Source of the DNA: Clostridiales bacterium DTU070
Lineage (GTDB): Bacteria; Bacillota; Clostridia; DSM-8532
Direction of reading: 5' to 3'
Assembly: GCA_001513105.1 (NCBI GenBank)
Contig: LFSH01000051.1
Span: forward strand, 1 to 33,994
DNA length: 33,994 nucleotides
The notes under the pieces: model-generated
Database searches by the model: none
What the model was told of the DNA's origin: nothing
Seen by the model: only the letters and a program-made list of their open reading frames with translations
Made by a program: the position numbers and the translations under genes
In this document: positions 23,607 through 27,592 of the stretch, in pieces
How the letters are laid out: each line of letters opens with the position of its first letter
Numbering within the stretch: position 1 is the stretch's first letter

Positions 23607-23683
23607 TATATTTATACAAAATATCAATGAATAAATGAATAATTATACAAATACTAATAGGGGGAGTAAAAAATGAAAAAAGT

Positions 23684-24529
23684 TTGAAAATAATTGCCAT
23701 GATAACAATTCTTGCTGCAGTTGCCGCAGCATTGGCAGGCTGCAGCCCGGCGGCTTCAGGTCCGAAAGTAAAAGTCATTGATATTCCGTTAACCCAGGAA
23801 GAATATGCTTTCGGTGTGAACAAAAACAAGCCCGAGATTCTTGAGGAAGTAAACAAGTTAATAGCCGATATCATGTCGGACGGTACATATGATGAATTAA
23901 TAGAAAAGTATTTCGGAGACGGTGAGCCTGAGGCAGTTGAATCCGCGGAACTTGATCCGTCGAAGGATCAGCTTGTTGTTGCTACGAACGCCGCCTTTGA
24001 ACCCTTTGAGTTTATGCTGGGCGATAAGTACTACGGAATAGATATGGAAATAGCAAAACTTCTTGCAGATCGCCTTGGTAAAGAGCTTGTAATCAGCAAT
24101 ATGGATTTTGATGCCGTATGCCTGTCGGTGGGCCAGGGAAAGGCTGATATTGCAATGGCAGGTCTTACGATCAGGGAAGACAGGAAAGAGTATGTTACAT
24201 TCTCAGACAAATACCATAATGCATCGCAGAAACTTATAGTGAAGGCATCGGACACCACTTTTGACAACTGTAAAACGGCAGAGGATGTTGAAGCCATTCT
24301 TTCAGGCCTGAGCAGCGATACCAGGATTGGTGTGCAGGGAGGTACAACCGGGCAGTTCTATGTTGAAGGCGACGAAGACTGGGGTTTCAGCGGCTTTGAC
24401 GTGGAATGCGTACCCTACAAATCAGGTTCTCTTGCAGTCCAGGATATGCTTAACGGGAATATAGATTATGTGATAATAGATGAAGCGCCTGCAGAGTTTA
24501 TTTCCAATGCCATAAATGAGCTTAACTGA
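23684..24529 (+). CDS. Amino-acid ABC substrate-binding lipoprotein, apparently circularly permuted
   Basis: A 281-aa binding protein of the SBP_bac_3 family. From TTG 23684 the signal peptide ends in lipobox ALAGC with Cys20. Residues ~28-77 (VIDIPLTQEEYAFGVNKNKP ... DGTYDELIEKYF) look like the segment that normally closes these proteins. The usual opening (LVVATNAAFEPFEF...YYGIDMEIAKLLADRLGKE) starts only at ~97, followed by the core ADIAMAGLTIREDRKEYVTF, and the protein stops right after VIIDEAPAEFISNAINELN, where a standard protein would go on for ~50 residues. The best Shine-Dalgarno (AGGGGGAG, 23659-23666) serves ATG 23673, whose frame ends after four codons at a TGA overlapping TTG 23684. 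One more A in the A6 run would join the frames as MKKSLKIIAM. Permease, ATPase and aminotransferase genes follow. Confidence 0.85.
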   Translation: MKIIAMITILAAVAAALAGCSPAASGPKVKVIDIPLTQEEYAFGVNKNKPEILEEVNKLIADIMSDGTYDELIEKYFGDGEPEAVESAELDPSKDQLVVATNAAFEPFEFMLGDKYYGIDMEIAKLLADRLGKELVISNMDFDAVCLSVGQGKADIAMAGLTIREDRKEYVTFSDKYHNASQKLIVKASDTTFDNCKTAEDVEAILSGLSSDTRIGVQGGTTGQFYVEGDEDWGFSGFDVECVPYKSGSLAVQDMLNGNIDYVIIDEAPAEFISNAINELN

Positions 24530-24548: not shown

Positions 24549-24590
24549 AGGGTCAGGCGGATTATCGTTTGCCTGGCCCTTTCGTTATTT
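24549..24590 (+). terminator. Weak terminator or attenuator after the binding-protein gene
   Basis: AGGGTCAGGC (24549-24558) pairs with GCCTGGCCCT (24571-24580) with one G.T pair, followed by an imperfect T-rich tail. It probably lowers expression of the permease genes relative to the binding protein. Bases 24591-24783 show nothing further; a 70-codon opening across this area lacks a ribosome binding site and family resemblance. Confidence 0.55.
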
Positions 24591-24783
24591 TAGGATTCGG
24601 AACACAAAAGCTGCGGGTTTTGAAACCGATATACTGCGCGGATTTTAGGACATTGCTTCCGGGAAGAAAGAAACCTGTTCACATGATTGTGTTTCGGATG
24701 TTTCTTAAAATGATATATCCGGTTGCTAAAGGGCAGCCGTGGTTGATATAATGTTGTAAAATACTTTTTGTTAGGGATTTGTG

Positions 24784-25494
24784 ATGGGTAGTTTTGAAAA
24801 GAAACTTATAAAGTTCTGGGAAATTTTTTATGAGCGCGGCGGTTACACAAAGGTTCTGACCGGGCTCAGGAACACTGCATATATTGCCGTTGCCGGTCTT
24901 GTAATCGGTATTATAATCGGTACGATAATAGCCGTTATCGAGGTATTTCCGAAATATAAGAGGCTTCCAAGAATACTGAACAGGTTTTGCTCCTTTTATG
25001 TCGGGCTGTTCAGGGGTTCTCCGATCGTGGTGCAGCTTCTGGTCGCATATTATGTTGTTCTGCCCCTGCTTGGAATAAACATACCGCCGCTGAATGTCTG
25101 TGTCTTGGTGTTTGGCCTTAACAGCGGCGCTTATGTTTCTGAAATTATGAGGGGCGGAATACTGTCGGTTGACCCGGGCCAGATGGAGGCAGGACGTGCT
25201 CTTGGCCTGAGTTATGGCACTACGATGCTGAAAATAGTTGTACCGCAGGCAGTGAAGAATATATTGCCGACGCTGGGCAATGAGTTTATAGCGCTGATTA
25301 AGGAAACATCGGTTGTAAGTTTCGTAGGTGCGGCAGACCTGTATGTTGCTTTCAACTATATAGGAACCAACAGCTATGAATTTATGGTTCCATACCTTGT
25401 CATGGCAGTAATCTATATTGTCATGGTTATGATTATAGCGCTGCTTGTGAGAATCATGGAAAGGAGCCTCAGGAAAAGTGATAGACGTAATTGA
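24784..25494 (+). CDS. Amino-acid ABC transporter permease (HisM/GlnP-type)
   Basis: Membrane subunit of 236 aa with about five spans, in a polar amino-acid importer. Family marks: [21 protein letters not shown] (start of the permease domain), [40 protein letters not shown], and the EAA loop [28 protein letters not shown] 24784 has AGGG 7 bases upstream; the in-frame GTG 24781 directly before it is closer than usual. The 3' end overlaps the ATPase gene by 17 bases, indicating translational coupling. Confidence 0.94.
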
Positions 25495-26302
25495 TTTAAG
25501 AAAGAGCTATGGCAGGCTCGAGGTTCTGAAAGGCATAACGGTTACGATAAAGGAAGGCGAAAAAATTGCGATAATCGGCCCGTCGGGCAGCGGGAAGAGT
25601 ACGTTTCTGCGCTGTCTCAACTGCCTGGAGGATCCTACAGGCGGTTCTATAATATTCGAAGGCGTTGATATTGCTGACATGAGAGTTGATATAAATATTC
25701 ACCGCAGGCACATGGGGATGGTTTTCCAGCAGTTCAACCTGTTCAACAACAAGACCGTAATTGATAATATTATGCTTGCACCGGTGCATACAGGCATTTC
25801 GGATCTTCGTAAAAAGAAGATAAAGAATTTTTTCATAAGAATAAGAAATCTTTTTGCCAAAAACAAAAAACCCCTTTATGAGATAAACACCACTCCTTCA
25901 AAAATCAAGGAAGAAGCCAGGGTAAATGCAATGCGCCTGCTTAGAAGAATCGGTCTTGAAGATAAGGCAAATGCCTATCCGTCAACCCTTTCGGGCGGCC
26001 AGAAACAGAGGATAGCAATAATTCGTGCGCTTGCAATGAATCCGAAAGTTATGCTGTTTGATGAACCCACATCTGCACTTGATCCCGAAATGGTCGGGGA
26101 AGTGCTTGAGCTTATCAAACAGGTTGCCGATGAAGGCATGACTATGGTCATTGTAACCCATGAAATGGGGTTTGCCAGGGAGGTTGCGACACGGGTTCTG
26201 TTCATGGATGAAGGAAGGATTGTTGAAGACAACACCCCAGAAGAAATTTTCACAAACCCGCAGAATCCAAGAACCAGGGAGTTCCTGTCCAAAGTTCTGT
26301 AA
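25478..26302 (+). CDS. Amino-acid ABC transporter ATPase (GlnQ/HisP-type) with an insertion
   Basis: Cytoplasmic ATPase of 274 aa. Walker [10 protein letters not shown] at ~34, Q-loop [19 protein letters not shown], signature LSGGQKQR at ~170, Walker [13 protein letters not shown] at ~191 and H-loop VTHEMGFA are all intact. Members of this family are usually about 240 aa. Here a basic insertion of roughly 35 residues (about 104-148, including [20 protein letters not shown]) lies in the helical subdomain between Q-loop and signature. The start is GTG 25478 inside the permease gene, preceded by AGGAAAA. Confidence 0.93.
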
Positions 26303-26372: not shown

Positions 26373-26425
26373 CATATAATACATATTCCAAAGGAATGCA
26401 ACTGTTGATATTGAGGTGAGTGCGC

Positions 26426-27592
26426 ATGAAATTTTCAAAACGTATTGAACAGCTTAATGAAGGAATTTTTTCGAAGCTCTTAGAGTTAAAGCGGGAAAGG
26501 CTTGCGAACGGTGAACAGGTGATAGATTTAAGCGTCGGAGCCCCGAATATTGCCCCAGCGAGGCATATAATAGATGCCCTGTGTGCAGCTGCCGCCGACG
26601 AAAAGAATTACACGTATGCGATAAGTGATCAGGTTGATCTGCTCAATGCAGTGAGTTCATGGTATAAAAACAGGTATGGAGTGGACCTGGACCCCAAAAC
26701 CGAGATCTGTTCGCTTTTGGGTTCCCAGGAGGGTTTTGCGCTCATATCAATGACCATTATAGACGAAGGGGACCTGGTGCTGATACCCGATCCGTGCTAC
26801 CCGGTATTTGCCGACGGCCCGCGCATGGCAGGGGCGAAACTTTATTACATGCCGCAGAAAAGGGAAAACGGCTATATTGTAAACCTTAAGGATATCCCGG
26901 AGGATGTTGCAAGAAAGGCAAAACTCATAATAGTTTCATATCCGAACAATCCGACCACGGCGGTTGCTCCCGACAGTTTCTATAACGAGCTGATAGCCTT
27001 CGCAAAAGAGTACGATATAATTGTGCTACACGACAATGCATACAGCGATTTGGTTTTTGACAATAAAAAAGGCGGCAGTTTTCTTGCCTATCCCGGTGCA
27101 AAGGATGTGGGCGTTGAGTTTAATTCGCTGTCAAAAACCTACGGGATAGCAGGTGCGAGGGTTGGATTCTGCGTGGGAAGCAAAGAGGTGGTTTCCCGCC
27201 TGAAAATGCTGAAATCCAACCTTGATTACGGTATGTTTATTCCTATTCAAAAAGCTGCCGTTGCAGCCATTACGGGCGATCAAAGCTGTGTTGCAAGAAC
27301 GAGGGAGGCATATGAATTACGCAGGAATATTCTTTGTGACGGGTTCAACAGCATAGGCTGGAATATGGAAAAGCCTGAAGCGACGATGTTCGTATGGGCG
27401 CAGATTCCGCCCAAATATGAAAAATCCATTGATTTTGCAATGGACATGATAAGGAAGGCCGGTGTGATGGTGACTCCCGGAAGTGCTTTCGGCCCTTCGG
27501 GCGAGGGACATGTACGCATTGCGCTGGTCCAGGATATTGAGGACATCAGAAAGGCAATTGAAGCAGTAAAGAAGAGCGGGATTCTTGAGTAG
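26426..27592 (+). CDS. Class I/II PLP-dependent aminotransferase
   Basis: Cytoplasmic transaminase of 388 aa. PLP-binding elements are visible: VIDLSVGAPN near the N-terminus, GSQEGFALISMTIIDEGDLVLIPDPCYPVF, VSYPNNPTTAVAP, LHDNAYSDLVFD (Asp and Tyr holding the cofactor), the Schiff-base lysine in NSLSKTYGIAGARVGF (Lys237), and the substrate-carboxylate Arg in GEGHVRIALV. It resembles aspartate/LL-diaminopimelate aminotransferase-like enzymes; the donor is not determined. ATG 26426 has GAGGTG 7 bases upstream; GTG 26420 overlaps that site. Its place after an amino-acid importer suggests it acts on the imported compound or a derivative. Confidence 0.9.
   Translation: MKFSKRIEQLNEGIFSKLLELKRERLANGEQVIDLSVGAPNIAPARHIIDALCAAAADEKNYTYAISDQVDLLNAVSSWYKNRYGVDLDPKTEICSLLGSQEGFALISMTIIDEGDLVLIPDPCYPVFADGPRMAGAKLYYMPQKRENGYIVNLKDIPEDVARKAKLIIVSYPNNPTTAVAPDSFYNELIAFAKEYDIIVLHDNAYSDLVFDNKKGGSFLAYPGAKDVGVEFNSLSKTYGIAGARVGFCVGSKEVVSRLKMLKSNLDYGMFIPIQKAAVAAITGDQSCVARTREAYELRRNILCDGFNSIGWNMEKPEATMFVWAQIPPKYEKSIDFAMDMIRKAGVMVTPGSAFGPSGEGHVRIALVQDIEDIRKAIEAVKKSGILE

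Follow-up and report, generated by a model that had tools for sequence, protein, structure and literature searches.

A naturally circularly permuted amino-acid receptor of the SBP_bac_3 family in a clostridial ABC importer operon and its counterparts in Bacillota

Introduction

Receptors of the SBP_bac_3 family, which serve ABC importers of polar amino acids, have a standard segment order of opening, lobe 2, return and tail. In the window, that is, the whole 33,994-nucleotide stretch of DNA that was analysed, one family member instead reads tail, linker, opening and lobe 2. The locus raises the question of whether such a gene encodes a working receptor whose chain has been circularly permuted in nature, or a fragment, a remnant of a larger protein or an artefact of assembly. 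A sequence-only reading had proposed natural permutation, brought about by tandem duplication and loss of both ends. We have followed up that proposal computationally, by sequence alignment, structure prediction, comparison of related loci and phylogeny.

Segment order of the receptor gene

An open reading frame at 23684-24529 (+ strand, as are all window features given here) encodes a permuted SBP_bac_3 lipoprotein of 281 aa, identified from its sequence, Pfam and alignments to AncQR. The signal peptide (23684-23743) ends in the lipobox LAGC, whose Cys20 is invariant in 56 aligned homologues. Cys20 and a short spacer are followed by residues 28-79 (23765-23920; KVKVIDIPLTQEEYAFGV...DGTYDELIEKYFGD), comprising a strand, a hinge strand and a pair of helices, all of which canonical binding proteins (SBPs) have at the C-terminus. 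A linker, residues 80-94 (23921-23965), delimited from the sequence and the homologue alignment, then connects the old C-terminus to the old N-terminus. The core, residues 95-281 (23966-24526), assigned from AncQR alignments and structure superposition, contains the N-terminal part of lobe 1 and lobe 2. The canonical opening QLVVATNAAFEPFEF begins at residue 95-97, and the chain ends with VIIDEAPAEFISNAINELN, followed by TGA. It halts after the helix that precedes the tail in canonical proteins, at the loop where these run on into the tail. The sequence-only reading had put the tail at about residues 28-77 and the opening at about 97, with nothing left of the tail at the back and a linker at the join. 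The quoted motifs are indeed present in the quoted order.

The start of the gene is disturbed relative to its relatives. A Shine-Dalgarno element, GGGGGAG (23660-23666), is correctly spaced to an ATG at 23673, and the matching element in two close relatives, L118 and L119, precedes an in-frame ATG. In the window this ATG is out of frame: ATG AAA AAA GTT TGA (23673-23687) reads MKKV-stop and overlaps the TTG at 23684. In same-genus relatives the receptor frame is open from the corresponding ATG (MKK start), and in the window sequence no properly spaced Shine-Dalgarno site was seen upstream of the TTG. A one-base indel or an assembly error in the A run is the likely cause, the latter being possible. 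The window copy is probably either frame-broken at its start compared with its relatives or started from the TTG.

Homology of the two pieces

The protein matches PF00497 (SBP_bac_3) with 111.7 bits, against a gathering threshold of 26.4, and does so in two stretches; Pfam gave no match to another binding-protein family of the OpuAC kind. In a search of 177,635 sequences both pieces scored far better than chance would allow: core residues 96-270 match residues 11-171 of AncQR (4zv1; 76.0 bits, i-E 2.5e-20), and residues 27-79, the front segment by itself, match residues 181-233 (31.8 bits, i-E 7.5e-7). The same swapped two-piece pattern is seen against AncCDT-1 and Thermotoga maritima ArgBP. 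When the pieces are put in the order core plus tail, as the sequence-only reading had suggested as a check, a single stretch results (3-240 to 12-233 of AncQR, 118.3 bits). Because one stretch is obtained upon reordering, the front segment is identified as the homologue of the standard tail, and no large part is missing or doubled. The marks of a natural permutant, namely one-piece alignment after reordering, linked old termini and new termini inside the fold, are all present. As judged from homology, the window protein is a permuted variant of SBP_bac_3 and not a standard member.

Predicted structure

An AlphaFold2 model, based on 56 aligned rows of window and locus proteins, has a pLDDT of 91.9 and a pTM of 0.82. 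Its residues 90-281 superpose on both lobes of solved receptors such as 6ggv and 4zv1 (Z about 16, rmsd 2.3-2.5 Å, ~170 residues), the rmsd of the core on solved closed SBPs being 2.0-2.7 Å overall, and the two-lobed type II fold is predicted accordingly. The moved tail is modelled at pLDDT 92-97 overall and 95-97 over residues 31-70, with strands at 29-32 and 39-46 and helices at 50-65 and 68-77 (DSSP). The linker is also modelled confidently, low values being mostly limited to the signal peptide and the spacer. Since the fold aligner is sequential, it leaves the moved tail unaligned. Packing of residues 28-79 on the core is thus inferred, from model confidence, secondary structure and lobe placement. 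No other residues of the protein are free to complete the two-lobed fold. Neither of the two outcomes that would have told against permutation was obtained: the front segment is not modelled as a separate domain, and its alignment does show homology to the standard tail.

Operon context and conservation

The receptor gene is followed by an imperfect inverted repeat and a T-rich stretch (24550-24579, read by eye), and then by genes for a permease (PF00528 by Pfam; 24781-25494) and a GlnQ/HisP-like ATPase (PF00005, from profile matches; 25478-26302). The order SBP-permease-ATPase is found at nearly all permuted loci of sufficient length. A HisM-type permease and a HisP-type ATPase are thus co-encoded, as a polar amino-acid importer requires, and import of polar amino acids is the inferred function; there are no binding, expression or transport data. 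The ATPase carries an insertion of ~34 aa between Q-loop and LSGGQ signature (25793-25894, approximate limits), recognized by comparing spacings. The spacing is 81 aa in 40 of the 46 ATPases measured in the clade of the window receptor and 58 aa in L086 and L064; operons of canonical, type B and other type A receptors gave 47 aa wherever measured (types defined below). Behind the transporter lies a class I/II aminotransferase gene (26420-27592), for which LL-diaminopimelate aminotransferase models are nearest, although it scores below their cut-offs; this position is common only to the close relatives L118 and L119. Elsewhere in the same genome, the sole other SBP_bac_3 family match is a 1002-aa open frame with an SBP_bac_3 domain (L083; G000:C14:8891-9541).

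That the same order might exist in other clostridia had been suspected, and a genome scan bears this out: at least 80 homologues share the tail-linker-core order (the best 80 of 310 encoding stretches), many of them in Clostridia. Their sources include the isolates Acetivibrio mesophilus, A. straminisolvens and Thermoclostridium caenicola, numerous MAGs of Lachnospiraceae and Oscillospiraceae, and a genome of the window's own genus assembled in a single contig (G172). In the alignment of 55 of them with the window protein (56 sequences in total), identity to the latter is 63-79%. Invariant residues include F105, F142, G160, R167, T221, T222 and D266, which we take to be the GlnBP-site residues that hold the side chain, carboxylate and amine of the ligand. 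Retention of the permuted order in at least 80 homologues, mostly within SBP-permease-ATPase operons, argues against both an assembly error and a dead fragment. We conclude that the window gene is a genuine and probably working natural circular permutant of a type II-fold amino-acid receptor, and assign this reading a probability of about 0.9; binding and transport remain inferences.

Canonical and permuted alleles in one genus

How a permuted gene can arise is best seen in genus g54, where 22 of 85 genomes have full-length matches of the window's tail-linker-core type (type A) and most others have canonical matches. Among the g54 loci (L188-L223), a single receptor gene occupies the same genomic position as either a canonical or a permuted allele. 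In an outgroup-rooted tree the 22 permuted genes form one clade (96/98) nested within the canonical genes, and the permuted form is therefore derived from the canonical one. A canonical orthologue at the same locus thus exists for this parallel type A event; none was found for the window clade itself.

The closest pair, L205 (permuted) and L216 (canonical), is 88% identical in protein and about 83% in DNA. The two are colinear upstream and through the signal peptide, and again downstream of the gene. The core at 1512-2027 of L216 corresponds to 1812-2327 of L205 (83%), and the 162-nt tail of L216 (2035-2196), which ends with the last sense codon, is found in L205 at 1600-1761, directly behind the lipobox. 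A terminator-like hairpin is common to both downstream. L188 and L189 show the same pattern of relocation with longer flanks. The linker of L205 opens with KYIPVEG, the former C-terminus retained in full down to the codon preceding the stop, and ends in FTTIESGKL, where the canonical post-lipobox spacer reads FTTVESGKL. From this resemblance, the second part of the linker looks like the post-lipobox spacer of a second gene copy. The permuted form has the new C-terminal residues ANK, which may be former 3' untranslated sequence that is now read as protein. The origin of the window linker is inferred by extension from this pair.

End-to-end duplication with loss of both ends, the route that had been proposed for the window gene, fits the L205/L216 junction, and to that extent the proposal holds. 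It remains an inference: double-tail intermediates were sought in all fetched loci and none was seen apart from the tandem permease fusions L130 and L131. A shorter route would lead to the same end product: the tail alone is duplicated, the copy is inserted after the signal peptide, and the original is then lost. The preserved flanks, signal peptide and hairpin of L205 and L216, with only a 162-nt block relocated, speak for it. Against it, the block stops precisely with the final sense codon, which is what a full gene running on into the next copy would give, and the second half of the linker is like the post-lipobox spacer. These last two points do not by themselves separate whole-gene duplication from tail insertion, and the latter is not excluded; we regard it as a serious contender, at somewhat under even odds.

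Other cut sites

Segment order was determined in related open reading frames with separate tail and core profiles. Besides canonical and further type A proteins, two other orders were found. In type B, the second half of the core is followed by the tail, a linker and the first half of the core, the cut being at the first, lobe-1/lobe-2 hinge; in type C the cut is inside lobe 2. For example, the type B protein of L095 matches residues 108-233 and then 10-104 of AncQR, and the type C protein of L127 matches 141-233 and then 9-135. Type B occurs at L095-L108, L126, L141 and L176-L178, and type C at L127-L129, in genomes outside the window's class. Of 391 sampled Clostridia genomes, at least 36 have type A and at least 17 type B, as judged from match patterns. 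Both B and C genes likewise adjoin permease and ATPase genes, and in L106, L176 and L177 the permease is fused directly to a type B receptor. The type B model has a pLDDT of 89.7 and a pTM of 0.82. Among the sequence matches listed, none of the solved chains had an order of type A, B or C, which is weak evidence only, and the sequential fold searches support neither a claim to, nor the absence of, a permuted match in the PDB.

A 779-aa permease fusion at L130 (1560-3896) has the order half2-tail-half1-half2-tail-half1-permease. It can be read as two permuted receptors in series or as one canonical receptor nested within a split one.

In AncQR numbering the cuts are at about 104-108, 135-141 and 171-181, all three in lobe 2; the small domain of GlnBP is, we assume, at ~90-180. 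This suggests either that relocation of the anchor or fusion point matters, or that lobe 2 merely tolerates cuts. The loci were picked by similarity, and cuts in lobe 1 may have escaped.

Number of origins

The number of events was estimated from a tree of 85 rows in which the proteins were rotated to canonical order and linkers omitted; an early quick tree was replaced by a careful one because of long branches. The careful tree requires 8 changes: 3 for type A, 4 for type B and 1 for type C. Type A needs 3 across the whole bootstrap range (3-3). A single type A clade is rejected (dlnL 163, p-AU 6e-95), as is a single clade of all permuted forms (dlnL 251, p-AU 6e-8). A single B plus C clade is rejected only marginally (p-AU 0.031), and L126, of type B, is sister to type C with support of 100/100. 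The groups used in these constraint tests were named only after the first tree had been inspected. The window form is one of several independent permutations of SBP_bac_3 in Bacillota, at three cut sites. L111, the canonical protein closest to the window clade, is on a long branch, which makes the window-clade event old and its ancestor unclear.

The alternative is a single ancient permutation that later moved, or reverted to canonical, several times. The tree is unrooted and the counts are blind to gain versus loss, and the marginal test and the position of L126 leave room for a shared origin of B and C. Nevertheless, the grouping of all permuted forms in one clade is strongly rejected, outgroup rooting shows the permuted form of g54 to be derived, and each reversion would have to restore the old termini. 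We consider a single origin unlikely.

Comparison with known receptors

In comparison with canonical GlnBP, ArtJ, T. maritima ArgBP and AncQR, all segments of the window receptor are homologous, the operon type is shared and the ligand-site residues are inferred to be the same. It differs from canonical SBP_bac_3 receptors in segment order, position of the termini and lipid anchor. OpuAC glycine-betaine receptors are presumably rearranged relative to ProX. Against OpuAC, the type B model can be aligned sequentially over 208 residues of 2b4l, almost its whole length (Z 12.6, rmsd 5.3 Å). As judged from the model, a type-B-like order may already be present in OpuAC; pseudo-symmetry of the lobes is an alternative source of the alignment.

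GlnPQ (6h30) has two complete canonical receptors fused to the permease, whereas the window protein has the segments of one. The tail-linker-opening junction between the two receptors of GlnPQ resembles the permuted junction, and the window gene could in principle be a remnant of such a tandem protein, a lost first receptor having left its tail attached to a second that had shed its own. It would then be a truncated or non-functional fragment, or active only as a domain-swapped dimer. Tandem receptors do occur in the family (6h30; L131 and L130), and in T. maritima ArgBP the subunits exchange C-terminal helices (PMC4022495), so that a tail in trans is possible; by analogy, part of the tail may act as a separable unit. 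The window gene, however, is a complete lipoprotein frame of 281 aa with each piece present once and the permease separate, at least 80 homologues have the same layout with ligand-site residues retained in those aligned, and the monomer is modelled confidently. In the young g54 pair, moreover, the tail stems from one ancestral gene that occupied this very locus. A tandem remnant is accordingly a very improbable account.

A chimera assembled within one metagenome bin could be imagined from the 107 contigs of the genome and the out-of-frame start, but it is ruled out for practical purposes by the same order in many independent assemblies, isolates and single-contig G172 included.

The precedent for a naturally permuted binding protein of an ABC importer is TpMglB-2 (Tp0684) of Treponema pallidum, a lipid-anchored protein described as Type Ic or cluster Bc (PMC4990184). 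It has the type I, glucose-binding fold, with N-terminal strands relocated to the C-terminal end, and represents one family without canonical sister alleles; its relatives are in spirochaetes and Gram-positives, and its authors raised tethering as a possible driver (PMC4990184). The window system differs in having the type II amino-acid fold, three cut sites and several origins. Pfam and sequence matches to solved structures place the window protein with type II amino-acid receptors and not with the type I sugar-binding fold. In the literature found, the term 'domain dislocation' denotes the ancient conversion of the type I into the type II fold (PMC9815098). TpMglB-2 was the only clear natural permuted receptor found in the literature, whose coverage was partial, with subscription journals and preprints mostly outside it. 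Within that coverage we found no account of permuted SBP_bac_3 proteins, of repeated permutation in that family or of a pair of forms within one genus, and a prior description is not excluded. Natural permutation of a binding protein is itself known; what appears to be new is its recurrence with several cut sites and the before/after pair within one genus.

A model for the permuted receptor

In the permuted receptor, the 52 residues that were formerly C-terminal stand behind the lipoprotein signal peptide, a 15-residue linker bridges the old ends, and the chain now begins and ends in lobe 2, next to the second hinge strand. The permuted chain is predicted to fold to the usual two-lobed receptor and would be tethered to the membrane by its N-terminal lipid. 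It would close on a polar amino acid between the lobes, dock on the permease as its canonical relatives do, and hand the ligand to the permease and ATPase encoded next door. The lipid anchor would then hold the receptor via lobe 2 and not lobe 1, an inference from the position of the new termini in the fold.

A broader possibility is that permutation of these receptors is both recurrent and selected, each event shifting the anchor or the permease fusion point and so altering how the receptor is held or docks. We put this forward tentatively and hold it to be rather doubtful at present. If true, the canonical and permuted alleles of a single genus would amount to a natural before/after experiment on how fold topology evolves.

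Implications

Natural permutations are usually inferred from distant relatives, after all else has diverged. Here the receptor of the same kind of importer has been permuted several times, and the g54 pair, at 88% protein identity, enables direct tests: of the DNA route, of the cost of permutation in stability and affinity, and of selection on relocation of the anchor. The rearrangement is concealed by standard annotation. The natural cut points and linkers are also templates for engineered biosensors.
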